Of a stretch of DNA of 32,366 nt, positions 1,731 to 19,241 are shown one piece after another. The notes beneath the pieces were generated by a model. That model searched no databases, had not been told where the DNA came from, and was given only the letters and a program-made list of their open reading frames with translations. This stretch comes from a virus, in the IMG/VR virus record IMGVR_UViG_3300006736_000045, positions 1-32,366 of that record; one strand, given 5' to 3'. Position 1 is the first letter of the stretch. The number at the start of each line of letters is the position of its first letter. The translations under genes and the position numbers were made by a program.

Positions 1731-1787
1731 ATGGCACTTAATTTTGACAATAACGCAGGAATAGAACGACTTGGAGCGATAAATTGA
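1731..1787 (+). CDS. Possible 18-residue leader ORF
   Basis: An ATG directly after the upstream stop opens an 18-codon frame (MALNFDNNAGIERLGAIN). Its TGA overlaps the TTG start of the next gene as TTGA. The arrangement would allow translational coupling into the 1342-residue gene. However, the best upstream Shine-Dalgarno-like run, GGAGGAG at 1708-1714, is about 16 bases from the ATG, which is too far to be convincing. It may be a chance frame in a 54-base gap. Confidence 0.25.
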   Translation: MALNFDNNAGIERLGAIN

Positions 1788-4700
1788 GCGTCAATAAATT
1801 AGATCCGCAATCAGTTCCACTCATACCGTCTGTGTCCGTTTCGGACGGACTGACTTCTGTCGGAGAGACACCGGAACTCGTAGCAGATAATTCGGTGCAC
1901 GCAGAGGTTATATCTCCACAAGCCGGTGGGCGGAACCTGTATAACACAGCTCCTGGAGCCCTCGGCGACTGGCTAGAGGGTTATCCGGCCCTGATATCCA
2001 GTGTGCGACTCAGTGAGTTTCAGCTCGATGGCTTCAGGGAGCTACTGACGGCGAGACTGACCGAACAATGGATAGATGACGCGACGACCAGCAACCTGTA
2101 CGCCACGGCTGAAAGTGATGTTGGTGATCCGGAGTTGTTGGCATCTATAAATCAACGTGTGGACGAAGAAATAGAGTTGGCGGATACAAGGATACAAGCC
2201 TTCGATGAGATATTACGCATGCGAAAAATTGCATATGCGGGGTACGGTCCTGTGTGTATACCGGCGAGCTCAGAATTCATGGATGCAATCATAAAGACCG
2301 GCCTGAGTCCGGAGCAGATTGATCCACTGATATCCGCAGAGATGATTTCCGCTAACTGGAGAACCACACTCAGCAGGATTGCCGGGCTGGGGAATCCTGA
2401 TGCCCACGCCGGCCTGCAGGTACTGCCGAACACCATGGCTTATATTTTCATTCTGGATCAACTGGAATTCATGATGCTATACGGCGTTTCATCCGGCTTG
2501 ATGATGGCCAGGGCTAACCAACAAAGCCTCATGAACACCATCGGTGGGAAACTCAATCACGCCGTAAACTACCTCGGCGCCCCTCCTCCTGGCGCATCGA
2601 ACACTCACCGCTACTTGCGTAAGGCCACCAGCCGCGCTGACGCCCAGCACGACCACCCGCCCCGCTCTCTTCCCACCATTGGCGACCACACCGGTAATCA
2701 GGCCAGGTTGACCATTACCGGTAATGCTCGTGATAATTTCGACAAGATCCTCCAACGAAAGATCAATAGGCCTGGCCTGAACGCCGTAGATCGATTGGTT
2801 TACTATAGTTGTGCATTGTCCCGCGAGTTTGCAATGTCTGTCGGCAAAGGCCTTCTACAGGGTGTACCGCTCGGACAAAAATACGGCGTAGGCGAAGGCG
2901 CTTCCCTTGGCAGCTCCGGCTGGGAGGGCATTCTGCGCAATTTGCTGGGGACTCAACACCTAAGTACTAACTTAGACCCCTGGGACCTGGCCAACCGGGA
3001 CTTATTTATTCCCGGATCTCTGTCCGAGTTAGCCGTATATCCGGGCCGTGACCCTCAAGGGTCTGACCCTCGGCAAGTAATATTGGCTCTGGAGGGGCAC
3101 AATGGCATCAATCCGGACGAACCACGACTGCCCATCGGTGACAGAAGCAATACGACCGGAAGGGCAGCATGGATAGATTCGTTGGCCTCCGGCGGCAACA
3201 TGTCACAGAATCGTTTGGGGGAGCTAAATGCATGGTTGAACGAGGCTGAGACTCGTTTTTCGGACGCAGGGGATATAATTTCGTCACTCCTATGCAGAGG
3301 CATGGATGCCGATCTGCTCACCCCCCGAGGCCTATTCACGCGCATCATATCTGATTTCTCAACATATCTCGAAGGAGTTGGGGAAACTAGTGCGAATGGA
3401 TCGGTGACCGACGATGCAGTCAATAAAGCCTGCGAGATCTCTATATTTTCCGCCATGGTGGGCACCCCGACGGACACCACGCGATGTTACTACTGGGCCC
3501 TGCTCAAAGCGGCCATGCAGGAAAAAATGGCTGGATCCAGGGAAACCGAAGAGGGCGGGATCGAAACCGACGCGATGTGGGAGGACTTCAACAGGGATAA
3601 CATGCGCGTACGTTTGGTTCCGAACGAGAACGATGCGTACGAAAAGGACGTCGAAGACGACGGCAACAAGGACTCGCGTTGGAGGCTCTTCTCCGACGCC
3701 CTTGTGGAGACCATGCAAACACCCGGTGTCTATGGCCGTACGATCGGGGAGGTCAATGCCCTGTATAGACCTAGCAACGGCTATTCCTCCTGTAGAGTGA
3801 CTGGTCTGCGCTACTCAGAGGTTTTCTCGTCCTGGAGTGGCGCCGATCTCAACGGCCGATCGGCTAGTGAGAGACAACCACTATTGAGGGACATCATCAT
3901 CAAAATCTTCAACGATATGCAGGACGAAGCCAAAAGACTGGTTGCGTCCGAGAATGATCAAGCTTCCTACTTGGATGCGTCAAACCAGACCCTGAATGGT
4001 GCTTTCGACGGGCAACGAGCCATGTTTTTCCTCTTGCAATCCTTCATCACTCTCGTAGATACGTACGTCCCGACGTTTACAATCGCAGACGTCGGTTTGA
4101 AGATTGATGAGGCCTCCCAGGGCCACGTTCGGCACCTCAAGGATGCCCCCCAAAATTTCGTAGTGCTGAACACTGGTCATACCGCCCCCGGCGCGTCGCC
4201 TATCCAACAGGGCACGACCGTCACGGTGAAAAACTTCCTACGTGAATTAGCAGCTGCATCTAGAGCCGATGATCTTTCCGGCATTGTCACTGCTGGCGCC
4301 GACGGGACACAAGAGTTCACTCCCGGGATCCGTGAGCTCCTAGGAGGTGGGCAAGCTGCCGAGTTTACTGGGTTGGGAACTTCTCTGCCTCCAGGTCCTG
4401 CGGCTCTGGTGGATGGTTTGATATCTACTGCACGCGAAGAGGAGATGCCTTATTTCTTGCTTTCTACCGCTCACTCTTTTATCAAAAACATAAAGAATCG
4501 TACTTCGGAGTGGAAGGCACTTGGAATGACTCTCGCGGGTACAATCGTTCCAGACGATCCTCCCCCTGCGACGAAGACGTTACTCCAGCTTCAGGGTGAA
4601 CCTGAATCTGATTATGCCCGTAGGTTCATTGCAGAAGTCTCTGCGTTTTCGATTTCTCAAGCCAGGAAAAGACTGTCCGATATCAGAGATGCAACTGCAC

Positions 4701-5812
4701 CCGATTATCTACTAGAGAAAACAGAGCCGTCTATTCTTAAGGCGTACAATTATCTGATTGATGAGATGGCTGCTTCAGAGAACTCGCCGCATGCTGTCGT
4801 CTTTGTCGGTACCACACCCGGCCAACTCCAAGCATTATCGCCGGCCGGCCTCGATCAAGACTCTATTGTTAGAGTCCAAATACAGAAGGCAGATGTAGCC
4901 TACCGCGGACTTAAATTTAATAATTTAGATTTTAAATTCTGCCCACAGCTGAAGACTCGAATGGGCTATGTGCTGGAGGTACTGACAAGCTCTGCACCTC
5001 TCCCCATAAACATAGAAGCCCTCGCACTCGCTGTGAAGTGGGATGTCGCGGGCCTAGACTATCCGATCGCAGGAGGGGATTTAGCAGGGCCCAGCCATGA
5101 GCGCGGCGACCAGCGCATTGCCAGAAATAATTACCGTGACAGTTTTACAAAGATCCTCGGCAACCACATGCGTTCTTTTCTCTTAAAGAACATGTTTGAA
5201 GATGTATACGGCATGGCATTTTCAAGCGAGAAGATCGTCCGGCGATTGCATTTGGATCGCAGTGACGAAGTCCGGCCTTTGATGCAGCTACTTTCGCGTC
5301 CCATGGGCATAGACCAAGATGCAGTCGATAAGATATTTGCCAACCCCACCAGTGCCCAAACATCCAGCGGTTTCGTAGATGCTGCAGACCCCTCCGCAAA
5401 GGTCCTTAAAGGTTACTCGCAGCTGGATTTAGAGCTGCAGCCCTCACGAACAGAGATAGGTGGCGAACCGGCTTGGAACGTCCCAAGGATGACCCAGACC
5501 CAGGTCGAAGCCATTCAAAACTTTTTTGCTACTAAGCCTTTCTTTCTGAATAGAGTGGCCACGCACGTATTTTCGCCTTCTATGTTTGAGTCAGTTTTCG
5601 CGCTGTTGGTGCCTCTAGGGGTGCTGGACCCCGGACAGGGCTCGTGCTGGCGGGCCATGAGTCCTATACGCCAACTCGGCCGCTATGAGATCGTAACGCA
5701 ACGCCAGTACACCACCTTGTACGATAGATATATTCATGACGCCGAATTGGAGCGTGCAGACTTCTTCTCTATGACTGTCGTAAACGCAAACATCACCGTG
5801 GCCGACAGGTAG
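1784..5812 (+). CDS. Very large virion-type protein of unknown function (1342 aa)
   Basis: I do not recognise this protein. It is encoded in one uninterrupted frame of 1342 residues. The TTG start is supported by a GGAG seven bases upstream and by in-frame stops just before it (1739, 1745, 1751). The sequence is soluble and mixed alpha/beta, with no signal peptide or long hydrophobic segment. A short His-rich, basic stretch lies near residues 275-300. It sits between two FN3-like structural genes with small intergenic gaps, so a tail, baseplate or virion-associated role is likely. It is long enough to be a tape measure protein, but I did not see the long continuous coiled-coil or hydrophobic segments typical of one. 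Confidence 0.65.
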   Translation: MSVNKLDPQSVPLIPSVSVSDGLTSVGETPELVADNSVHAEVISPQAGGRNLYNTAPGALGDWLEGYPALISSVRLSEFQLDGFRELLTARLTEQWIDDATTSNLYATAESDVGDPELLASINQRVDEEIELADTRIQAFDEILRMRKIAYAGYGPVCIPASSEFMDAIIKTGLSPEQIDPLISAEMISANWRTTLSRIAGLGNPDAHAGLQVLPNTMAYIFILDQLEFMMLYGVSSGLMMARANQQSLMNTIGGKLNHAVNYLGAPPPGASNTHRYLRKATSRADAQHDHPPRSLPTIGDHTGNQARLTITGNARDNFDKILQRKINRPGLNAVDRLVYYSCALSREFAMSVGKGLLQGVPLGQKYGVGEGASLGSSGWEGILRNLLGTQHLSTNLDPWDLANRDLFIPGSLSELAVYPGRDPQGSDPRQVILALEGHNGINPDEPRLPIGDRSNTTGRAAWIDSLASGGNMSQNRLGELNAWLNEAETRFSDAGDIISSLLCRGMDADLLTPRGLFTRIISDFSTYLEGVGETSANGSVTDDAVNKACEISIFSAMVGTPTDTTRCYYWALLKAAMQEKMAGSRETEEGGIETDAMWEDFNRDNMRVRLVPNENDAYEKDVEDDGNKDSRWRLFSDALVETMQTPGVYGRTIGEVNALYRPSNGYSSCRVTGLRYSEVFSSWSGADLNGRSASERQPLLRDIIIKIFNDMQDEAKRLVASENDQASYLDASNQTLNGAFDGQRAMFFLLQSFITLVDTYVPTFTIADVGLKIDEASQGHVRHLKDAPQNFVVLNTGHTAPGASPIQQGTTVTVKNFLRELAAASRADDLSGIVTAGADGTQEFTPGIRELLGGGQAAEFTGLGTSLPPGPAALVDGLISTAREEEMPYFLLSTAHSFIKNIKNRTSEWKALGMTLAGTIVPDDPPPATKTLLQLQGEPESDYARRFIAEVSAFSISQARKRLSDIRDATAPDYLLEKTEPSILKAYNYLIDEMAASENSPHAVVFVGTTPGQLQALSPAGLDQDSIVRVQIQKADVAYRGLKFNNLDFKFCPQLKTRMGYVLEVLTSSAPLPINIEALALAVKWDVAGLDYPIAGGDLAGPSHERGDQRIARNNYRDSFTKILGNHMRSFLLKNMFEDVYGMAFSSEKIVRRLHLDRSDEVRPLMQLLSRPMGIDQDAVDKIFANPTSAQTSSGFVDAADPSAKVLKGYSQLDLELQPSRTEIGGEPAWNVPRMTQTQVEAIQNFFATKPFFLNRVATHVFSPSMFESVFALLVPLGVLDPGQGSCWRAMSPIRQLGRYEIVTQRQYTTLYDRYIHDAELERADFFSMTVVNANITVADR

Positions 5813-7800: not shown

Positions 7801-8489
7801 ATCACAGTACAAATAATATTATCATCGATGCAGTCTTGACGGACAAAGGTCGCGAGCTTCTTGCTAACAACGAAGGTAATTTCAAGATTGCTTTCTTTTC
7901 TTTGGCCGACGATGAGGTAGATTACAACATCATTGAAAAATTTGGACGAGCCGTAGGGAAAGAAAAGATAAGCAAGAATACCCCTGTTTTTGAAGCTCAA
8001 ACGGTTGGTACCCTTGCTATGAAACACAGACTGCTTACCTTGCCTAACCCTAAGGTAGTCCGGCTGCCATCTTACACGCTTACCGCCCCCAACTTAGATA
8101 ACGAGATCCTTAGTTTCAGTGCAAACACCCCTATCAATGAAATGACCGTCAACCAAATCATCGTTGGACAAGCTACCATACCCGAGGGTGTTGCTGACAC
8201 CACATTTACTGTACTTCTGCCGGACAGATTTTTGACTCTACAAGGCAGGAGCCGAATTTCCATAGAGGCCACTACTAGAACCGCTACGTATGGCATCACG
8301 GCGACAGGCCGCAACGACGCTCAAGGTGCCACAGCTCAGTTTACCCTGCAGAAACAAAGCATAGACGATACTATGTTTACGATCTACGGAGACTCCAACG
8401 ACAAAAGTACGATCACCGGCGTGGTGTCGATCATAGGGGACCAGTCCGGTCTGAGAAAAGACTTCAGTTTTCAGATAAAACAAACATAG
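7788..8489 (+). CDS. Virion structural protein (MGFLD...-type), apparent AUC start, 233 aa
   Basis: The first conventional start in this frame is TTG at 7836, which has no Shine-Dalgarno and would remove a family-like N-terminus. The frame is open from 7761. Reading from ATC at 7788 gives [M]GFLDHSTNNIIIDAVLTD, which resembles the MGFLD...DAVLT-x-KGR-x-LL opening I recall in T4-like virion proteins of unknown function. An ideal AGGAGGT at 7776-7782 lies five bases before this ATC. The protein has a helical N-terminal region (KGRELLANNEG, then FFSLADDEVDY) and a beta-rich C-terminal half from about residue 100. I infer a tail or baseplate component. If AUC is not used, the product would be a 217-residue form from TTG. 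Confidence 0.65.
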   Translation: MGFLDHSTNNIIIDAVLTDKGRELLANNEGNFKIAFFSLADDEVDYNIIEKFGRAVGKEKISKNTPVFEAQTVGTLAMKHRLLTLPNPKVVRLPSYTLTAPNLDNEILSFSANTPINEMTVNQIIVGQATIPEGVADTTFTVLLPDRFLTLQGRSRISIEATTRTATYGITATGRNDAQGATAQFTLQKQSIDDTMFTIYGDSNDKSTITGVVSIIGDQSGLRKDFSFQIKQT

Positions 8490-8506
8490 AGAAGGTGAAT
8501 TAACGC

Positions 8507-9847
8507 ATGGCAAATTTGACAGGTGGCAGCTTTAAGCGAATAAGTCCACAAGATATCTCAAACAAACAGTCGACCCTAAACCAACTTGTCGACGTCGTAC
8601 AGGAAGACGTTTCTGGTTCTGCTACTAGAAAAAAATATCAAGTCTTCGTCACTGGCGGCGTAGGTCCCGGAGTCACGAGCTCCCTATTTCAAACCGTATA
8701 CGACCAAGACTTCTCTCTCCAGACTGCTAACCCCATCTTCGACATGACTGTGGGCCTGTACCAGTCCGGAACTACGGTCACCGCCGCGAAGACTGGCCAG
8801 GACGGCACCGGAAAACTCTTGTTTTCCTCCCAATCCCTGATGATGAGAGAGAAGGTCGACGTTTACAAGCAATTCGCTGCTAATCTTTTAGGCGATGCCG
8901 GGCGAGCATTCTTCGCGCCGTTCAACGCTCCATCCACCACCGACCCGACCGACCCGGGTGGGATCAGTAACCAAGTTAACGAGGCTCTGTTCGTTTCCTT
9001 CAAGAGGTTGTTCTCTCGGGATAAGATCAAGAGAGAGACGTTCGCGACGAGGATCTACCGTAGCGGTGTCCTGGACGGCTCTCCTGCCACCGGACTTTAC
9101 GAGCCCGGCGTTGCCGGCACACCCGGCATGGACAACGGCGAGGCCAGAGTCCTCCAAGGGTATACGGGCTCTAACATCTATAGGACTTCCACCTCAGGCA
9201 GCGCAATCTTCAGCGACATCGGGGCGGCAGGCAGTGTGCTATCGTCCTTCGGCGGCGGCGTAGGCAACATAGTGAATGCTGCGAACACAGCTGAGACGGT
9301 GGGGCTGATGTTTTACGATGCAGGCACGGCCGTGTTCGACATGAAGAAACTGTTCTTCTGGGATCAGCACATGAGCGGTGCCATCCAAGCCATGGCGACT
9401 GCAAACACCGTCAACGGTGCGACCATAGCCACTGGATACTCCGTCATGGGAGCCTCTGCGTCCAACGGCAAGGCGCAGCTCATCCCTGACTTCTTGGTGT
9501 CTGGTTCCATTGATCAGATCGTCGACCACGTTGCTTCGACCAGGTTCCAGTCCGGATCTTTGACTGCTGCGACTTTCCAGAATGCGACTAACATAAACTC
9601 TACCCTCATCTTCTGTCGAGCTACAGCCGATGAGTTCAACTATTCGTCGAACCCAACTTTCACGACCGACAACAGGATTGTAGTGATAGATCAGGGACAA
9701 GATGATACTCAGCGATCCTTTACGTTCCCGACGACTGTAGGATTGCATGATGAATTTGGTAACTTATTGGCTGTGGCAAAGATGTCCAGACCGATAGAGA
9801 AGAATGACGAAAAGGATATTACGTTCAGAATACGTTTAGACTTTTAG
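8507..9847 (+). CDS. Tail/baseplate-type structural protein (446 aa)
   Basis: The ATG start has GAAGGTG about ten bases upstream and follows the previous stop by 17 bases. The N-terminal region (about residues 1-190) is mixed. It includes DQDFSLQTANPIFDMTVGL and a helical segment with EALFVSFKRLFSRDKIKRE. The middle is rich in Gly, Ser, Thr and Ala. The last roughly 60 residues (SSNPTF..., TVGLHDEFGNLLAVAKM, then FRIRLDF) match the end of the downstream 829-residue protein. This terminal domain resembles ones I recall in structural proteins of T4-like marine phages. A baseplate or tail-tip role is inferred from context, not demonstrated. Confidence 0.65.
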   Translation: MANLTGGSFKRISPQDISNKQSTLNQLVDVVQEDVSGSATRKKYQVFVTGGVGPGVTSSLFQTVYDQDFSLQTANPIFDMTVGLYQSGTTVTAAKTGQDGTGKLLFSSQSLMMREKVDVYKQFAANLLGDAGRAFFAPFNAPSTTDPTDPGGISNQVNEALFVSFKRLFSRDKIKRETFATRIYRSGVLDGSPATGLYEPGVAGTPGMDNGEARVLQGYTGSNIYRTSTSGSAIFSDIGAAGSVLSSFGGGVGNIVNAANTAETVGLMFYDAGTAVFDMKKLFFWDQHMSGAIQAMATANTVNGATIATGYSVMGASASNGKAQLIPDFLVSGSIDQIVDHVASTRFQSGSLTAATFQNATNINSTLIFCRATADEFNYSSNPTFTTDNRIVVIDQGQDDTQRSFTFPTTVGLHDEFGNLLAVAKMSRPIEKNDEKDITFRIRLDF

Positions 9848-9881
9848 TCGGTTTTCGCTGGATGCAAAAAAGGCGAGCTGA

Positions 9882-12371
9882 ATGTCTATCATAAACTTAA
9901 CGAAAGATTATTTTCAATCCCTAAAACTCATTACGAACCCTCGTCGTACTTTTTCATCTTCCTCTGCTGGGGTGACGGGCAGCGTCGCTCTTTTCCCCGA
10001 TGCGTCTTCCGGCGTCAAGGATCTTTATCCTACATACGGAGAAAGCTCCGGATCTTGGGGTGGAGCACAGATAGAGGAATTCCGAAACAATTTAGTTCAG
10101 TCGATTGCTGGTAATCCGGATGGCGATTGGGACAGCGCTTTCGTTCAATATATGGACCTAGTAGGAAGTGCTTCTGTTCCTGTACGGTCGTCCAAGAGAC
10201 AAGAGGTTCTGCGGTTTACACCCGGCGTGACGCTGGATAAGACGTTCATGAAAAAGAACGTGGTGAAGAACATTCTTTTCCCCTATTACAGGAACTTGTA
10301 CCGCAGCGCACAGTGGAATTACACAAATTATAACTGCCTCAATTTCGTCACCGGAGGTAATCTTCCTACGGACTCTGTGCTCATCTACCCGGCCGGTACC
10401 GGGAGCGCGTTGGGCGAAGATGAAAATCCGTACGGAACTGCAGCCACTGGGTTTACTTTTGATTTCTATATAAATCCTCGATACAGCTCAACCAGGCCTG
10501 GAGACGAGTATACTGCCGGCACCATCCTACATATGTCTTCTTGCTTTGCGTTGAGTCTGGTTACCGGAAGTTCCATGGGCGCTGATGGTAAACCGGACGG
10601 TTTTCGGCTACTTCTGCAATTGAGTTCGAGTGCAGACATTCCTCCACGCAGATGTGCCATATCGGGAGATGCTGTTACGACTCCATCACCCGGCCAAAAT
10701 TCCACGTGGGCTTTCGTGTCGAAGGATAATTCGCTCAAGAAGAACAACTGGCATCACGTCGCTGCTCGTTGGGGCGGCCCTTCTGCCAACAACGGCACCG
10801 GCTCTATATTGATAGACGGAGTTCACAATTCCGATTTCGTCGTAAACACTCCCACTAGTAGCATTATGCAGGTTACATCCAGCGGCACCTCTCTGTTAGA
10901 TCCTGACGCACTATTTGTGGGCAATTACTACGAAGGCACCAACTACGGAGCTAACGCGATAGGGTTATTCTTCAACCCGGCAGCTAGTAGAGACGAGGGA
11001 GTCGTCAGCTATTCGGACAATTACCCCAGCGAAGACCCCGCCGCTTTTTCTTTTGCGCACCCCCTGAATGCAGAACTGCATGACATAAAGATTTTCAATA
11101 AATACAAACTTGAGGGAGAGATAAGAAGCAACGCTTCGGTAGGGTCCAAACTAACGAGCGATCTGATATTTTACGTGCCACCGCTTTTTACCAAAGACTC
11201 GCGAAAGAGGTATGTCCTCCAAACGCCTTTTTACAGTGCCACCGGTTCTTCCGAAGATCCTTTCAACGTCGCACTAGCATTCGGAGTGGGTGGTCTTAGC
11301 ATAAACTTAGAAAACTTTACTAAGGAATTTGTAACCAATCAGTTTCCCAGACTTTTTAATCTATCTGCTTCTAGGATCGACACGCAGGTCAATATCCCGC
11401 GTACTGCCGATTATCTTCTTTACGAATCTGGCTCTTCCGTAAAGAGGAACCTTACGATCACGCCTTGTGATAACGGCAAGTTTTTTCCAAACTTCGATCT
11501 ACTCAAGACGGTGCCTTCTTCGGGAGTCACCAACATATCCTCGGGAACGACGTCTACAGACCAATATACCGGCGTCTTCGACGACAGGTTTGTAGACGCA
11601 TTCGGTTCTTTGGATTTTTCCATCATCGATCTTTCGAGCATGGTAGATACCGGAATGTTGGCTTCGGGTACCATGATACCCACTCGTACAACATTGGACG
11701 ACGAAAATCCAGAAAGCACAGGGTTCGAAAATGACGGTTCTTTACTGGTTCCTTTGGAGGGGGCCACCCCGGAAGACCCAGGAGTAGCTCCAGGAAATAT
11801 TTTGACTGTGCTGCAGAGGACGGAAGACCCCAGTTCTAACCAGGTTGTATTTTTTGATATCTCGAATATGTTTTATGGTGATCGCATCAAACCTAAAACA
11901 TTGGTGATAGAGGACCTAAGCGTTACCGGCTCCGCCGGGCGCATGAGTTTTAAGTTCAAGGACGACGGACGCGGTAACCTGTACCGAGCCGACAGCCCTC
12001 CACCACATCCCACCTGGTCTTCCGTTGGAAACGTTTTGTACGAAGAAGGGATCATAGTAATAAAGACTCCACATGCACCGTTTTTCGGTAAGGACTCCTT
12101 TAAAGTGAGTTTCCTAGGCGAAAGAAACGTGTACGTCTTGGAGATACAGGTACCTCTGAACACGTCTGCATTCAACTCCTCCAGTAACCCAACTTATTTA
12201 GAGATGGCTCCTTCCAATTATCGCAATGATACTGCAAGAAAGTTTACCTACATCACCGGCTTAAATCTCCACGACGACAACATGAACGTCATCGCTAGAG
12301 CGAACTTGGCCCAACCGATAGTGAAAACAGACTCGGATAAAATGGTGATCAAACTAAGGATCGATTACTAA
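9882..12371 (+). CDS. Tail/fibre structural protein with LamG-like domain (829 aa)
   Basis: The ATG is preceded by AAGGCGAG. Residues about 190-415 read as a LamG/concanavalin-like jelly roll: FTFDFYINPR strand, GTILHMSS, the diagnostic NNWHHVAARW (288-297), GSILIDG (307-313), and a closing LHDIKIFNKYK (399-409). Such domains bind sugars or pack in fibres and baseplates. The C-terminal about 60 residues (SSSNPTY..., ITGLNLHDDNMNVIARANL, KLRIDY) are homologous to the end of the 446-residue protein upstream. The two genes therefore probably share an attachment mode in the particle. The stop and the next start overlap as TAATG, marking translational coupling to the resolvase gene. Receptor binding is possible but unproven. 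Confidence 0.72.
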   Translation: MSIINLTKDYFQSLKLITNPRRTFSSSSAGVTGSVALFPDASSGVKDLYPTYGESSGSWGGAQIEEFRNNLVQSIAGNPDGDWDSAFVQYMDLVGSASVPVRSSKRQEVLRFTPGVTLDKTFMKKNVVKNILFPYYRNLYRSAQWNYTNYNCLNFVTGGNLPTDSVLIYPAGTGSALGEDENPYGTAATGFTFDFYINPRYSSTRPGDEYTAGTILHMSSCFALSLVTGSSMGADGKPDGFRLLLQLSSSADIPPRRCAISGDAVTTPSPGQNSTWAFVSKDNSLKKNNWHHVAARWGGPSANNGTGSILIDGVHNSDFVVNTPTSSIMQVTSSGTSLLDPDALFVGNYYEGTNYGANAIGLFFNPAASRDEGVVSYSDNYPSEDPAAFSFAHPLNAELHDIKIFNKYKLEGEIRSNASVGSKLTSDLIFYVPPLFTKDSRKRYVLQTPFYSATGSSEDPFNVALAFGVGGLSINLENFTKEFVTNQFPRLFNLSASRIDTQVNIPRTADYLLYESGSSVKRNLTITPCDNGKFFPNFDLLKTVPSSGVTNISSGTTSTDQYTGVFDDRFVDAFGSLDFSIIDLSSMVDTGMLASGTMIPTRTTLDDENPESTGFENDGSLLVPLEGATPEDPGVAPGNILTVLQRTEDPSSNQVVFFDISNMFYGDRIKPKTLVIEDLSVTGSAGRMSFKFKDDGRGNLYRADSPPPHPTWSSVGNVLYEEGIIVIKTPHAPFFGKDSFKVSFLGERNVYVLEIQVPLNTSAFNSSSNPTYLEMAPSNYRNDTARKFTYITGLNLHDDNMNVIARANLAQPIVKTDSDKMVIKLRIDY

Positions 12372-12934
12372 TGATACTTCTGGGGCTGGATATCTCTACC
12401 GCTGTGGTTGGATGTTGCATTATAGACACAGAACTGCCCCCTAGGGACAGATTGCTTCATGCGTACGCGATCGTATTGTCTAAAAAAAACGGCCTTTACT
12501 CAAAGGCTGATCACGTAAGAGATGAGTTTTTGCAACTCAAGAGAGGGTTTTCCATTGATCAGGTGCTGGTAGAAGAGAATCTCCAAGCCTTTCGCCGCGG
12601 TCTGTCTTCCGCGAAGACACTTTCTACCCTAGCAAAGTTTAATGGGATCGTATCTTTTTTGGCTCAAGACGTATTAGAGGTACCAGTAGAGTTGATAAAC
12701 GTCAACAGCGCGCGTGCCGCTGCTAAGGTAAAAGTGGACAGAAAAATAGACGTCGATGCAAAGCAGCAGGTGTTGAATGCGATCTCTGGAAGAGAGGAGT
12801 TCAAAGGGTATCAATGGCCTACTAAGACCTTGAAATCAGGGCCCAGGAAAGGCTTGACCATAAATGCTCCTGAGTGTTTTGATATCGCTGATGCCGCTGT
12901 GATCTGTCTCTCCGGTCTGAGTACTGAACATTAG
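12371..12934 (+). CDS. ruvC-like: RuvC-like Holliday junction resolvase (187 aa)
   Basis: The protein opens with MILLGLDISTAVVG, the first strand of an RNase H/RuvC fold with the catalytic Asp at residue 7. The second acidic position lies in VLVEENL (E68/E69). The final pair is in CFDIADAAVICL (D171, D174) before the C-terminal helix. The length and D...E...D..D spacing fit RuvC-family resolvases, which cut four-way junctions; in a T4-like phage such an enzyme would debranch DNA before packaging. T4 uses the unrelated endonuclease VII (gp49), so this is an alternative solution. The start overlaps the upstream stop as TAATG. A related RNase H-fold nuclease with another DNA target cannot be excluded. 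Confidence 0.82.
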   Translation: MILLGLDISTAVVGCCIIDTELPPRDRLLHAYAIVLSKKNGLYSKADHVRDEFLQLKRGFSIDQVLVEENLQAFRRGLSSAKTLSTLAKFNGIVSFLAQDVLEVPVELINVNSARAAAKVKVDRKIDVDAKQQVLNAISGREEFKGYQWPTKTLKSGPRKGLTINAPECFDIADAAVICLSGLSTEH

Positions 12935-12940
12935 TGTTAT

Positions 12941-12959
12941 ACACGTAAAATTAACGTGT
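12941..12959 (+). promoter_or_regulatory. Small hairpin overlapping the primase start codon
   Basis: ACACGT (12941-12946) and ACGTGT (12954-12959) can form a 6-bp stem with a seven-base A/T loop. The 3' arm includes the first two bases of the GTG start at 12958, and no Shine-Dalgarno is visible upstream. This could limit initiation or act as a translational operator. A 6-bp inverted repeat can also occur by chance. Confidence 0.3.
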
Positions 12960-13908
12960 GAATTATAGACGCGATATAAAGCAGCTGCTTAACAAGGCTT
13001 TTGGGGGAGGGACCCCTTCTCGCGACGGGATAAATTATTCTCTTAGGTGTCCTACTTGTAACGACACCGACGCGTCCAAAAGAAAACTAGTCGTGCGTCT
13101 CGACGACGGCCGATTCCACTGCTGGGTGTGCGAGACCAAAGGCGGAAATATCCTCAGGCTGATAGGCAAATACAGGCCTGAACTAGTTCGTAATATTAGC
13201 TTAGAGTTTCGATCCGACGACCCGCCCGATGATATTCGCGAGAAAGTAGAGCTTCCAAAAAACACGGTGCTGTTAGGAGCGGTGGGAGATAAAACGGACC
13301 CCGACATAAAAGCAGTCTTTAATTACCTCCAACGACGCGGCGCGACTCGACGGGATATGTTAAGGTGGAGGATGCTTTCTTGTTCTACCGGTCGTTTCCG
13401 TAGGAGGGTTATCATACCATCTTTCGACGATTGTGGCGAAATTAATTTTTACGTTGCGCGCACAATAGATCAAACAAAAAAAATGAAGTATTTAAATGCC
13501 CGAGTCTCTAAAGACGATGTTGTCTTTAATGAAATAGACTTGGACTGGAGTAAGGAAATAATCTTAGTAGAAGGCGTTTTTGATGCCATAAAATGCCCAG
13601 AGAATGCTGTTCCAATTTTGGGCTCCAGTATTTCCAAGAACTCTGCACTGTTAAAGAAAATATCGACGCATCAAAGCCCCTGTGTAGTATCTCTCGATCC
13701 TGATATGAAACACAAGGCTTTTGCTTTAGCCGACTCTCTGGTCTCCTTTGGGTGCGACGTCAAAATCGCTTTTGCCCCTCCAAGACAAGACGTAGGCTCT
13801 ATGGAAAAATCGGACGTGCGTAACCTATTGAGTTCCGCCGCGATTTACAATGATATGATGAGAATATCGCATAAGATAAATGGGATAAAATCCGGATCGA
13901 TTTTTTGA
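12958..13908 (+). CDS. gp61-like: DNA primase, T4 gp61 / DnaG type (316 aa)
   Basis: The protein makes RNA primers for lagging-strand synthesis, working with a replicative helicase that is outside the window. An N-terminal zinc-binding motif has CPTC (C31, C34) and CWVC (C55, C58), matching the CHC2-type domain. A TOPRIM core follows, with EGVFDA (E205) and the SLDPD acidic pair (D247, D249). The 316-residue length is close to T4 gp61. The start is GTG with no clear Shine-Dalgarno, and a hairpin covers it. The gene is followed within eight bases by the Mre11-Rad50 fusion, so the two are probably co-transcribed. Confidence 0.92.
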   Translation: MNYRRDIKQLLNKAFGGGTPSRDGINYSLRCPTCNDTDASKRKLVVRLDDGRFHCWVCETKGGNILRLIGKYRPELVRNISLEFRSDDPPDDIREKVELPKNTVLLGAVGDKTDPDIKAVFNYLQRRGATRRDMLRWRMLSCSTGRFRRRVIIPSFDDCGEINFYVARTIDQTKKMKYLNARVSKDDVVFNEIDLDWSKEIILVEGVFDAIKCPENAVPILGSSISKNSALLKKISTHQSPCVVSLDPDMKHKAFALADSLVSFGCDVKIAFAPPRQDVGSMEKSDVRNLLSSAAIYNDMMRISHKINGIKSGSIF

Positions 13909-13915
13909 GTAAATA

Positions 13916-16900
13916 ATGAAATATAAATTTGCGCACTTCGCCGATGTTCACTGGCGGGGGCTTAGCCGTCACCTCGAGTATCGCCGCGCGTTCAGTAGGT
14001 GTTTTGAGGAACTTCGTCATGAGAATGTTGATGCTATTTTCGTCGTAGGGGACATAGTACACTCCAAGACCCAGGGGATATCCCCAGAGTTGATTGATAG
14101 CCTATGCTGGTGGTTCAGAGAGATGGCCGAGATGGCTCCCACATACGTCACGCTGGGAAACCACGACGGCTTAGTTCTCAATAAGGACAGGGAGGATGCT
14201 ATAGGTCCAATCATTAGAGCTCTGGATCATCCACAGCTGCACTTGATAAAAATGACTGAAAAGGTGTCTTTCGATGAGAATATCGACATAAGTAACTTTT
14301 CTTGCTTTGATGAGACTAGTTGGCCAAATATTTCTCCAACCGAGGGAAAGATGAACGTTGCGTTGTTTCACGGCGCAGTACGCGGGAGCAAGACCGACAT
14401 AGACTGGGAACTGGATGGTGAAGTTGAAGCCAAGATGTTTGATGGCTATGACTTTGTGTTCTTGGGCGATATCCACAAACATCAATTCCTCGACGAGGAG
14501 AGTAGGATAGCATACTGTGGGTCGACCATACAGCAGAATTTCGGCGAACTTCCCGGTAAGGGATTTCTTCTGTGGGGGATAGATTCGAGCGACGAGTACG
14601 AATGTAAGCACGTGGAAGTTCCTCATGACAGGCCGTTCGTGACCATCGACTGGATGGGTAACGTGACGAAAACTATTGATGAAGCCGAGGCACACCCAGA
14701 CCACGCTCGCTTTAGAATAAAGACTACTCAACCGATAAGTCAAGGAGAGATAAAGCAGCTTTATAGCGCGCTGAAGGAGTTCAAGAGTGCTTCGGAGATA
14801 GTGATGAAGCATGAACCGCAACGTGTCGTCACTGATTTCGACACTGAGGCTTCTACAGACTCACAGAACCTGCAAGACCCTAGGTTTGTGTCACGCATGA
14901 TACAGACGTACTACCAGAAGGCAGGACTTGGTAAAAAAACTAAAGAGCGATTAGACGAAATGCTACACCGGCTATGGAAGACCGCGATAAAGTCAGATTC
15001 TTACCCTGCCGGCAGATGGTCACTGAGATCCGTAGAGTTCGACAACACGTTCGGTTATACCAAAGACAATCGTATAAATTTTGATTCAGCAGATGGTATC
15101 GTAGGAGTTTTTGGAAAAAACAGGATAGGAAAATCCTCAATATGCGGGACTCTCATGTACAGTCTGTTCAATGCAACGGACCGCGGGCCCATTTCTAATC
15201 TCCACGTAATCAACACGAGAAAAGGGCATTGTAAGGTTCGTGCTGTGATCAGCAAGTCTGGAAAAAATTATCTCATAGAACGGCAGACGGTAAAGAAGCA
15301 GGCTCGGAATGGAAAATTGAGCGGTGTGACGCAACTTAATCTATTTGAGGTGGACGATGATCAAAAGATCATAAAAGACCTTTGCGGTGAGCAGCGCCGA
15401 GAGACTGAAAAAATCCTTAGAAAGATTGTGGGTACGGCTGAAGATTTTCTACTCACTTCTTTCGCTGCCCAGGGAGAGATGAATTCTTTTCTAAAGCAGA
15501 AGGCTTCCTCAAGAAAAACTGTCTTATCTAAATTTTTGCAACTCGATGTTTTTGAGAAGCTGCACGAAGCAGCAAAGGAGGAGAGTCTTGCAGTTAAACA
15601 ACTGCTTAAGAGTGTTCCTGAACGTGATTTTGATGTCGCCATAATCGACCTTAAAAACAAACTCTCAACAAGGGAGAACGAGAGACAAACCGTCTGGGGC
15701 AGGTTGGAAAAATTCCGGCGCCGCGCGCGTGAGCTAGAGGTGACTTTGGCAACGAGGTCGGACGGTAACTTAGTGACTAAATTTGACGTGCAACAACAAG
15801 AGGAAAAGGTAGAAAAATTATCGGCCGAGGTGGAGAGGAGAGGCCTGACTGAAAAAATATTGACGGAGGAATTTGCGGTTTTAGAAGACAAGCTGGTAAA
15901 ACTGTCCTCTTTTAAGAAAGATTTCCCCCTCGTAGATCTCAAGTCGTCGCTGGAAGAACAGAGGCAGCTGGAAACAAGTACGTCCAGTATAAAGCACGGT
16001 GTAGAGAAAGAAAAGCAAAAACTAAAGAGTTTGGAGAATCAGGTGGCAAGGCTAACGGATGTTCCCTGCGGAGATTCGTTCCCAACGTGCCAATATATCG
16101 TCAGTGCACGAAAAGCAAAAAAGAAATTAAACACTCAAGAAAAAAAGATCACTGAGTTGAGAGAGGATCTTTCGGCTACACGCAAGTGTCTAAAGAAGCT
16201 CTTAGATCAAGATCTGGAAAGCAAGCTCGATAAATACGACGTTCTTCTATCAAAGCATAGTAAGATGGAACTTGAAAAAAGCCAGCTTCAGATGACGTTG
16301 GCTAACGAGAGCGCCGATTTTAAAACTGCGCAGGAGACGTTGGAAGTAGAGGATCACCGGCTTGACGAAATGAGAGCCAACCTAGCAACTGATGACGCGG
16401 CCGCTCAAGTTAAACAGCTTCGCGAAAAATTAGATTTGTTTAGGGAAAAAATCTCTATGGACGAGACAAAACACGCCGCCGTCTCTGAGACTATAGGCCT
16501 TCTTTCCTCCGACATCTCTAAACTAAGAAAGGAAAAACACAGGTTTAGGGACCTGATAGAAAGCTGGAAGGTTTTTGACTTGTTCCTGCAAGCGACGTCT
16601 AAAAACGGAATTCCGCTAGAAGTCATAAGGTCAAGACTGCCTGAGATCAATGCTGAGATAGCAAGCGTACTGCAAGGCGTGACTGGCTTTACTGTTGAGC
16701 TTGAGTCGGATGAGGGGTCCAACGATATGGATATTTATATCAACTATGGAGACTCTAGAAGGATAATCGAGTGTGCGTCCGGTATGGAGAAGATGATGTC
16801 TGCCTTGGCCCTTAGAGTGGCGCTGATAAATGTATCGTCTCTACCTAAATCCAGTCTTCTAGTGATCGACGAGGGTTTCGGTGCTTTGGACGGAGCCAAC

Positions 16901-17050
16901 GTTGAAGCATGCGGTAGATTCTTGGAGGCGCTAAAAAAGTGGTTCAAGACTATATTGGTTATTTCTCATGTAGATGCCGTAAAAGACGGGGTAGATAACG
17001 TGTTGGAGATTGAACGTCGAGGAGTGGATTCCCATGTCGTATTCGGCTAA
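13916..17050 (+). CDS. gp47-gp46 fusion: Mre11-Rad50 (SbcD-SbcC, gp47-gp46) fusion recombination nuclease (1044 aa)
   Basis: One uninterrupted frame encodes both subunits that T4 makes separately as gp47 and gp46. Residues 1 to about 340 are the Mre11 phosphoesterase: ADVHW (D10, H12), GDIVH (D46, H49), GNHD (81-84), FHG (H152) and GDIHKH (184-189). Residues from about 368 are Rad50: Walker A GKNRIGKS (400-407), Q-loop near Q519, and coiled coils at about 550-710 and 730-880. A hook region with C718 and C725 lies between the coils. The ABC signature is SGMEKMM (955-961), Walker B is LLVIDEG (981-987), and the H-loop is at H1018. The complex resects DNA ends for recombination-dependent replication. 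The linker (about 340-367) shows no stop or internal start signal. Confidence 0.95.
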   Translation: MKYKFAHFADVHWRGLSRHLEYRRAFSRCFEELRHENVDAIFVVGDIVHSKTQGISPELIDSLCWWFREMAEMAPTYVTLGNHDGLVLNKDREDAIGPIIRALDHPQLHLIKMTEKVSFDENIDISNFSCFDETSWPNISPTEGKMNVALFHGAVRGSKTDIDWELDGEVEAKMFDGYDFVFLGDIHKHQFLDEESRIAYCGSTIQQNFGELPGKGFLLWGIDSSDEYECKHVEVPHDRPFVTIDWMGNVTKTIDEAEAHPDHARFRIKTTQPISQGEIKQLYSALKEFKSASEIVMKHEPQRVVTDFDTEASTDSQNLQDPRFVSRMIQTYYQKAGLGKKTKERLDEMLHRLWKTAIKSDSYPAGRWSLRSVEFDNTFGYTKDNRINFDSADGIVGVFGKNRIGKSSICGTLMYSLFNATDRGPISNLHVINTRKGHCKVRAVISKSGKNYLIERQTVKKQARNGKLSGVTQLNLFEVDDDQKIIKDLCGEQRRETEKILRKIVGTAEDFLLTSFAAQGEMNSFLKQKASSRKTVLSKFLQLDVFEKLHEAAKEESLAVKQLLKSVPERDFDVAIIDLKNKLSTRENERQTVWGRLEKFRRRARELEVTLATRSDGNLVTKFDVQQQEEKVEKLSAEVERRGLTEKILTEEFAVLEDKLVKLSSFKKDFPLVDLKSSLEEQRQLETSTSSIKHGVEKEKQKLKSLENQVARLTDVPCGDSFPTCQYIVSARKAKKKLNTQEKKITELREDLSATRKCLKKLLDQDLESKLDKYDVLLSKHSKMELEKSQLQMTLANESADFKTAQETLEVEDHRLDEMRANLATDDAAAQVKQLREKLDLFREKISMDETKHAAVSETIGLLSSDISKLRKEKHRFRDLIESWKVFDLFLQATSKNGIPLEVIRSRLPEINAEIASVLQGVTGFTVELESDEGSNDMDIYINYGDSRRIIECASGMEKMMSALALRVALINVSSLPKSSLLVIDEGFGALDGANVEACGRFLEALKKWFKTILVISHVDAVKDGVDNVLEIERRGVDSHVVFG

Positions 17051-17249
17051 AACTATGATAATTTACTTGGGAGACAGTCAACCGTACACTTGTGTTGTAT
17101 GCGAGTTCGTTCTTAGGGACGATGAGGATGTTGAATCAGTGAAGACGGAGGGGGCATGCGAACACTGCGTCTTGATGTTCAAGTATTCTCGACGAAAAGA
17201 GTGGGATTCTGGATGGAGACCTACTATCGCTGAGGCAAGATGCTACTAA
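17034..17249 (+). CDS. Small four-cysteine putative zinc-ribbon protein (71 aa)
   Basis: The ATG at 17034 has AGGAG nine bases upstream and is preferred over the TTG at 17010, which would overlap the fusion gene more deeply. The frame overlaps the end of that gene by 17 bases. The product has two pairs, C20-x2-C23 and C42-x2-C45, separated by an acidic stretch. This is a typical structural zinc-ribbon layout. Many small phage zinc-ribbon proteins bind nucleic acid or polymerase, but nothing here identifies a target. Its position joins the DNA-metabolism island to the packaging genes. Confidence 0.65.
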   Translation: MSYSAKTMIIYLGDSQPYTCVVCEFVLRDDEDVESVKTEGACEHCVLMFKYSRRKEWDSGWRPTIAEARCY

Positions 17250-17651: not shown

Positions 17652-19241
17652 GTGGCCAAGGTCGGCAAGCAAAAACAGATCAAAGAAATAATAAAGTGCG
17701 GTAAGGATCCGGTCTACTTCGTAAACAGATACGTCAAGATCCAACATCCTACCAGGGGACTCATCCCCTTCGACACATATAGTTTCCAAGACGACTGCTT
17801 TTCCGATTTTGTCGATCATCGCTTCAACATTATTTTAAAATCAAGACAGCTTGGAATATCAACGCTGACTGCATGTTATGCCGTGTGGTTGGCGTGTTTT
17901 TATAGAGATAAAAATGTTTTAGTTATCGCCACCAAGCTTGCTGTTGCGCAGAACTTCATAAAGAAGGTTAAGACGGCGATCAGGAGTATGCCAAAATGGC
18001 TTACAATTCCAGAGGTAATTTCTGCAAATAAGCAAGGGGTAGAGTTCAGCAACGGATCAACCATCAAAGCAGTACCCACGTCGGACGATGCCGGTCGTTC
18101 CGAGGCGTTGTCTCTATTGATAGTTGACGAGGCAGCATTCATTAGAAACTTCGACGAACTGTGGCTGGGGTTATATTCTACCCTATCGACCGGTGGTAGA
18201 GCCATCGTTCTATCTACACCCAACGGCGTGGGAGATAAGTACCATGAACTCTGTATGGGCGCTGAAAACGGAGAAAATGAATTTAATTTCATAAAACTCC
18301 TGTGGGATGTACACCCAGAGCGGAACGACGAGTGGTTCGAGAGCGAAACTAAGAACATGAGTCGGAAGCAGATCGCTCAAGAGCTCATGTGCGATTTTGC
18401 AGCCTCCGGAGACACCTTTCTTTCTTCTGCGGACATAGAGAAGTTGTCTATGAGGATCCAGAAGCCTTTGGAACGCTGGGGCCCAGACATGGGAGTGTGG
18501 GTGTGGAAATACGCCCTGTCTGAGCATAAATACGTTATCTCGGCTGACGTCGCCCGCGGCGACGCGGCCGATTACTCTGCATTTCATGTGTTTGACACTA
18601 CAACATCTGAACAGGTAGCCGAATACAAGGGCAAAGTGCCCCCAGATCATTTTGCTACTTTGTTGGCAGAAGCCGGAAAACGTTACGGCACTGCACTCAT
18701 ATGTCCAGAGAATAACACATATGGTTACGCCACCGTCATGAAACTTGTGGACCTAGGTTACCGTAATCTGTATTTCAAGAACGAAAAAGATCGTTTTTCG
18801 GCGCTGTACGGAAATTCTACCCCAGACGTTTCTAGGATAGGCTTCCAGACAAACGTCCAAACTAGGGGACAAGCGCTAACCAAGCTGGAAGAATCCATAA
18901 GGACGAACGCTGTAAGATTTTACTCCTCACGGTTTTATGGTGAGCTCAAGACTTTCGTTTGGAAGGGCTCAAAGGCTCAAGCCCAAAAAGGAAAGAACGA
19001 CGACTTGGTGATGTCAGCCGCGATCGGAGTATGGATATTCGAAACTACCCCCTCGCACAACGCGCAAGCGCAAGATCTCAATAAGGCCATGTTGGATGGT
19101 TTTGCCACTAACGACCGAGGGCAAAGAAAGCCTTACAACCCGTGGTCACGTTTCGCGTTCAATCCCTTCAAACCCTATCACATGTCTAGCATGCCCGCGA
19201 GTGGGTCTGCAGACGGGATAGATTTTAGCTGGGTTTTATGA
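17652..19241 (+). CDS. gp17-like (terL): Terminase large subunit, T4 gp17-like (529 aa)
   Basis: This is the packaging motor ATPase and headful nuclease, which docks on the portal. The ATPase domain has an adapted Walker A, SRQLGIST (64-71), Walker B LLIVDEAAF (155-163) and coupling motif STPNG (188-192). The C-terminal RNase H-like nuclease has its three acidic positions in ISADVARGD (D299), CPENNTYG (E353) and NDDLVMSAA (D450/D451). The order matches T4 gp17, and the length is somewhat shorter than T4's 610 residues. The GTG start lies two bases after the preceding stop, suggesting coupled translation. No intein or frameshift interrupts it. Confidence 0.97.
   Translation: MAKVGKQKQIKEIIKCGKDPVYFVNRYVKIQHPTRGLIPFDTYSFQDDCFSDFVDHRFNIILKSRQLGISTLTACYAVWLACFYRDKNVLVIATKLAVAQNFIKKVKTAIRSMPKWLTIPEVISANKQGVEFSNGSTIKAVPTSDDAGRSEALSLLIVDEAAFIRNFDELWLGLYSTLSTGGRAIVLSTPNGVGDKYHELCMGAENGENEFNFIKLLWDVHPERNDEWFESETKNMSRKQIAQELMCDFAASGDTFLSSADIEKLSMRIQKPLERWGPDMGVWVWKYALSEHKYVISADVARGDAADYSAFHVFDTTTSEQVAEYKGKVPPDHFATLLAEAGKRYGTALICPENNTYGYATVMKLVDLGYRNLYFKNEKDRFSALYGNSTPDVSRIGFQTNVQTRGQALTKLEESIRTNAVRFYSSRFYGELKTFVWKGSKAQAQKGKNDDLVMSAAIGVWIFETTPSHNAQAQDLNKAMLDGFATNDRGQRKPYNPWSRFAFNPFKPYHMSSMPASGSADGIDFSWVL

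Follow-up and report, generated by a model that had tools for sequence, protein, structure and literature searches.

In the T4 record, genes 46.1 and 46.2 lie between 46 and 47, which are distinct genes, whereas the window analyzed here (the whole stretch of 32,366 nucleotides, positions 1 to 32,366 of IMG/VR virus record IMGVR_UViG_3300006736_000045) has Mre11 (SbcD) and Rad50 (SbcC) in a single frame. This contrast, which the initial annotation drew and which holds, raises the questions of whether the fusion is real, what its product does, and whether it is exceptional. The frame is open from its ATG to its stop (Table 1), and it does contain Mre11 followed by a complete Rad50, as claimed, with all of the motifs then named (D10/H12, GDIVH, GNHD, and GDIHKH) present. 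Pfam searches with the 1044-residue product returned Metallophos at residues 4-188 (1.3e-10), AAA_23 at 379-588 (5.8e-8), and SMC_N at 773-1032 (1.2e-10), and PHROGs placed SbcD-like phrog_100 over residues 1-354 and SbcC-like phrog_77 over 369-1036. In a phmmer search of the PDB, Rad50 and Mre11 chains matched at both ends of the fused protein, and a PDB search with a profile of 49 relatives gave E. coli SbcC as the best match (7e-28), with T. maritima Mre11 at 1.4e-14.

Table 1. Coordinates in the window of the fused gene, the parts of its product, and neighboring genes
Feature	Position	Strand	Evidence
RuvC-like Holliday junction resolvase	12371..12934	+	phrog_159 2.5e-9; upstream in 42/45 relatives
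DNA primase	12958..13908	+	phrog_47 1.1e-39; 44/45 relatives
Fused Mre11-Rad50 (SbcD-SbcC) gene	13916..17050	+	1044 aa; Pfam, PHROGs, and PDB matches; frame also in contigs L001 and L003
Mre11 phosphoesterase (nuclease) domain, residues 1-245	13916..14650	+	Pfam Metallophos; 84 relatives; AF2 model
Mre11 capping domain, residues 247-300	14654..14815	+	AF2 secondary structure; profile match to E. coli SbcD 172-362
Cap to helix-loop-helix link, low-confidence, probably flexible, residues 301-321	14816..14878	+	pLDDT <50 at 303-315
Mre11 helix-loop-helix (HLH; Rad50-binding), residues 322-357	14879..14986	+	helices 322-332 and 340-357; conserved alignment
Fusion linker, 9 aa, residues 358-366	14987..15013	+	without secondary structure; first Rad50 strand at 367
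Rad50 ATPase N-lobe, Walker A GKNRIGKSS (400-408), residues 367-543	15014..15544	+	Pfam AAA_23; PDB Rad50 matches
Ascending coiled coil, residues 544-715	15545..16060	+	long helices in AF2 model
Coiled-coil apex, C-x6-C motif VPCGDSFPTCQYI (C718, C725)	16061..16099	+	helix break about 716-725; CX6C in relatives
Descending coiled coil, residues about 729-894	16100..16597	+	AF2 model
Rad50 ATPase C-lobe	16598..17047	+	Pfam SMC_N / SbcC_Walker_B; invariant columns
Terminase large subunit, T4 type	17652..19241	+	PF03237 4.4e-15, phrog_2; 45/45 relatives

The metal ligands of the Mre11 domain are D10, H12, D46, N82, H152, D185, and H187, and these, along with H49 and H83, are kept in 83-84 of 84 fused proteins. 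The position of the canonical Mre11 His206 is occupied by Asp (D185), and motif V reads GDIH, not GHxH. Both ATPase lobes are complete, the C-lobe supplying the signature SGME (955-958), Walker B LLVIDE (981-986), the D-loop (991-992), and H1018 to go with the Walker A of the N-lobe. The sequence shows that the single frame encodes an intact two-metal phosphoesterase, a cap, an HLH, and an ABC ATPase. The domain set and fold are the same as in E. coli SbcCD and in archaeal and eukaryotic Mre11-Rad50, although those complexes consist of two chains, with a longer coil and a CXXC hook.

An AlphaFold2 model of the window protein has a mean pLDDT of 84 and shows the domains in the expected order, its pTM being only 0.52 because of the long coil. 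Foldseek retrieved Mre11-Rad50-Nbs1, SbcCD, and Rad50 as the best matches in the PDB and, in BFVD, fused Mre11-Rad50 proteins of Tupanvirus, other giant viruses, and the Tenacibaculum phages pT24 and PTm1 at full length. The initial annotation had called for a check that the linker can span the two halves; a fusion has been estimated to bridge a gap of 28 A, corresponding to 9-12 residues (PMC3175470), and the linker found here, judged from length alone, is sufficient at nine. Together with the usual HLH, a linker of this length in the model suggests that the ordinary geometry of the complex is retained.

The apex of the coiled coil differs from that of T4 gp46, which has a canonical CPTC hook. 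In the window protein the CXXC zinc hook is absent and is replaced by C-x6-C (VPCGDxFPTC): relative to CPTC, the first Cys is changed to Phe or Tyr, and another Cys is found four residues earlier. The two cysteines are invariant across a 49-row alignment, and CX6C was present in 203 of the 207 relative ORFs scanned, typically as VPCGDxFPTCKFI. The outgroup proteins L005, L006, and L010 have CXXC. A literature search of open papers retrieved none describing a C-x6-C tip, and hook sequences are not discussed in the paper that described Mre11/Rad50 fusions (PMC3175470). Given the Asp at the His206 position and the non-CXXC hook, metal use and tethering may differ in detail from the canonical enzymes, and the altered hook amounts to a natural test of the need for a CXXC zinc joint.

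T4-type packaging and head genes surround the fusion gene in the window. Among 45 long loci, 42 retain the order RuvC, primase, fusion, small ORFs, terminase, and the resolvase, primase, and terminase neighbors fit a replication-recombination-packaging module. Since all of the ordinary Mre11-Rad50 parts are present, we favor the conservative reading of DNA-end processing for recombination-dependent replication: judging from sequence, the gene product is very probably a tailed-phage Mre11-Rad50 nuclease in single-chain form, which would carry out this processing under ATP gating. By analogy with T4 gp46/47, with which the window protein appears to share the same two enzyme activities as well as a setting of T4-type terminase and head genes, its job is likely ATP-gated end processing with the subunits at 1:1, and this stoichiometry, as proposed in the initial annotation, follows from the single chain. 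Two chains would dimerize through their Mre11 domains and ATP-bound Rad50 heads, and across the nine-residue linker each HLH would bind the foot of the Rad50 coil in either its own chain or the partner chain. The heads would then open upon ATP hydrolysis, allowing the nuclease to reach DNA ends or hairpins, yield 3' ends for recombination-dependent replication, and clear blocked ends. The fusion itself would secure a 1:1 supply and the co-transfer of the two activities while adding no new activity, and the protein may be cleaved into two chains post-translationally.

A fused protein turned to another task, such as host-DNA degradation or anti-defense, would offer an account of the C-x6-C tip and of the GDIH in motif V with its Asp-for-His ligand. 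Nevertheless, we consider this improbable, as every other catalytic and ATPase residue is retained and the resolvase, primase, and terminase adjoin the fusion in nearly all relatives; moreover, the annotation of T4 gp46/47 covers recombination as well as the degradation of host DNA, so one role does not preclude the other.

No stop, frameshift, or overlapping gene was found at residues 340-368, in agreement with the initial annotation, and an in-frame ATG at residue 349 falls within the second helix of the HLH and is without a good ribosome-binding site. Two separate contigs, L001 (97% nucleotide identity) and L003 (99.6%), have the same frame, open, which excludes a stop or frameshift concealed in the window sequence, including the sequencing error near 14940-15020 that had been named as a potential refutation. 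L001 covers the Mre11/Rad50 junction and has one synonymous difference at residues 340-370; over the 867 codons shared with the window gene, 16 differ, 15 of them synonymous and 1 non-synonymous, which indicates strong purifying selection on the fused product. Although a similar artefact may exist in Listeria phage LMTA-57, which has one 1009-aa ORF while nearly all of its close relatives have two genes, we give practically no credence to the fusion in the window being an assembly or sequencing artefact in which a lost stop or frameshift masks a gp47/gp46 boundary, as the two independent contigs carry the identical open frame and a single fused frame is also present in over 80 relatives with identities as low as 22%. 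We would like to note that the LMTA-57 ORF (1917-4946 of L007) is annotated as an exonuclease and that this stretch is one base shorter than in the sister records; LMTA-57 is therefore doubtful as a genuine case of a fused gene in a cultured phage, and its fusion may be a sequencing artefact.

The initial annotation had also regarded the fusion as exceptional, and here its estimate was too high. A search of IMG/VR for the family yielded at least 587 confirmed relatives, and 84 of the 96 loci retrieved have a single frame that begins with Mre11 and continues through the end of Rad50, in a sample picked by similarity to the fused query and hence not an unbiased fraction. The remaining matching frames among these loci are mostly cut by contig ends, in addition to L006. 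A second sample, drawn by the tip motif only, comprised 37 fused genes, 36 cut by contig edges, and 5 split within the nuclease, with no splits at the boundary where the two genes are usually separated. Fused genes are also present in Microcystis phage Mel-JY01 (PP395634; 27% identity) and the 735-kb huge phage LR756501 (24%), both having an SbcDC encoded by a single ORF that matches across the whole query; their tips, unlike that of the window protein, have a canonical CXXC. No nucleotide-level relatives were found among phage records. The fusion is the usual form in an uncultured, largely marine phage group, and the occurrence of the same fusion in many relatives, which the initial annotation said would lower its novelty, is what we observed. 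In one locus (L256, near 4587), the frame is broken near the Mre11-Rad50 linker, and either genuinely separate genes or an error in the contig could account for this.

Yoshida, Claverie and Ogata described such fusions in 2011 for Mimivirus R555 and Bacillus phage 0305phi8-36, among others; they also occur in plasmids, bacteria, and eukaryotes, and aquatic viral metagenomes are rich in them, with phage primase genes adjacent (PMC3175470). The window fusion belongs to this known kind and is not novel as a fusion; many other single-chain SbcD-SbcC proteins were found by the search of phages that had been suggested. It resembles the R555-type fusions in its order of Mre11 then Rad50, its HLH, and its short linker, and shares with R555 the deviations of a His in GDxxH (motif II) and an Asp for Pf His206, although R555 is 1351 aa long versus about 1044 aa for the window protein. 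What it adds is a well-supported, widespread phage clade in which the fusion is the rule; a single chain as compact as this, about 1040 residues long, could suit structural work on Mre11-Rad50 gating.

Within this group, about 24 loci (15 without near copies) have the fused gene broken inside the phosphoesterase, always at a single site between GDIHKxQ and the strand AYPGSxIQQ, which leaves all metal ligands on the first piece (L216-L228, L230, L232, L233, L274, L283, L104, L105, L114, L138, L150, and L006 at 7944-12169). The corresponding position in the modeled window protein is a loop that joins two strands. Both pieces have acquired conserved ends, the first an acidic tail REVELEIDExDLxxYPGAEVI and the second a basic head MSKKIKIKVKKPW; L282 and L286 have a similar longer stretch in one frame. 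Spacing between the pieces ranges from overlaps of 4 or 8 nt, mostly 4-nt stop/start overlaps, up to a gap of 924 nt. The 924-nt gap, in L227, contains an ORF (2979-3881) of 300 aa with a Cys-rich N-terminal part and weak Vsr/DUF559 matches, and remnants of this nuclease-like ORF are found in L223 (about 5673-5810) and L225 (about 5646-5722). A different ORF, of 305 aa and with a match to TnsA-like endonucleases, lies between the pieces in the 484-kb phage LR756508 (L006, 8665-9582). In L105, an ORF of about 70 aa (387-602) between the pieces has start/stop overlaps with both neighbors.

The split relatives match the genes-in-pieces pattern of T4-like phages, as in Aeh1 nrdA, which is split by mobE, and T4 gene 39/60 (PMC2988022). 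The likeness consists of about 24 relatives split in the nuclease domain, one of them carrying a nuclease-like ORF between the pieces; the differences are that the window gene is itself unsplit and that the gene split in its relatives is an Mre11-Rad50 fusion. In a FastTree tree, the split or fused state changes at least 6 times, and because the method is quick and some branches are long, we consider recurrent splitting likely rather than proven. As other explanations for the split relatives, frameshifting is unlikely, since gaps of up to 924 nt have stops in the relevant frames; a self-splicing intron was rejected, as Rfam gave no match and the 4-nt overlaps leave no space for one; and a split intein was rejected because the tails start without a Cys/Ser intein motif. 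We tentatively entertain, with more doubt than confidence, a scheme in which the CXXC zinc hook, conserved widely in Rad50, has become a relocated C-x6-C (C-G-D-x-[FY]-P-T-C), the arms being tethered differently through a wider zinc site or none, and in which Mre11 has undergone recurrent fission after insertion of a nuclease gene, the conserved new tails rejoining the pieces. The split relatives bear on how such an enzyme tolerates division into two pieces.

Elsewhere in the window, a 1342-aa ORF (1784-5812) without a PHROG or Pfam match is probably structural. A small Cys-rich ORF (17010-17249, with its probable ATG near 17034), to which no family was assigned, overlaps the fusion gene at its 3' end, and 39 of 45 relatives likewise have it downstream of their fusion genes.
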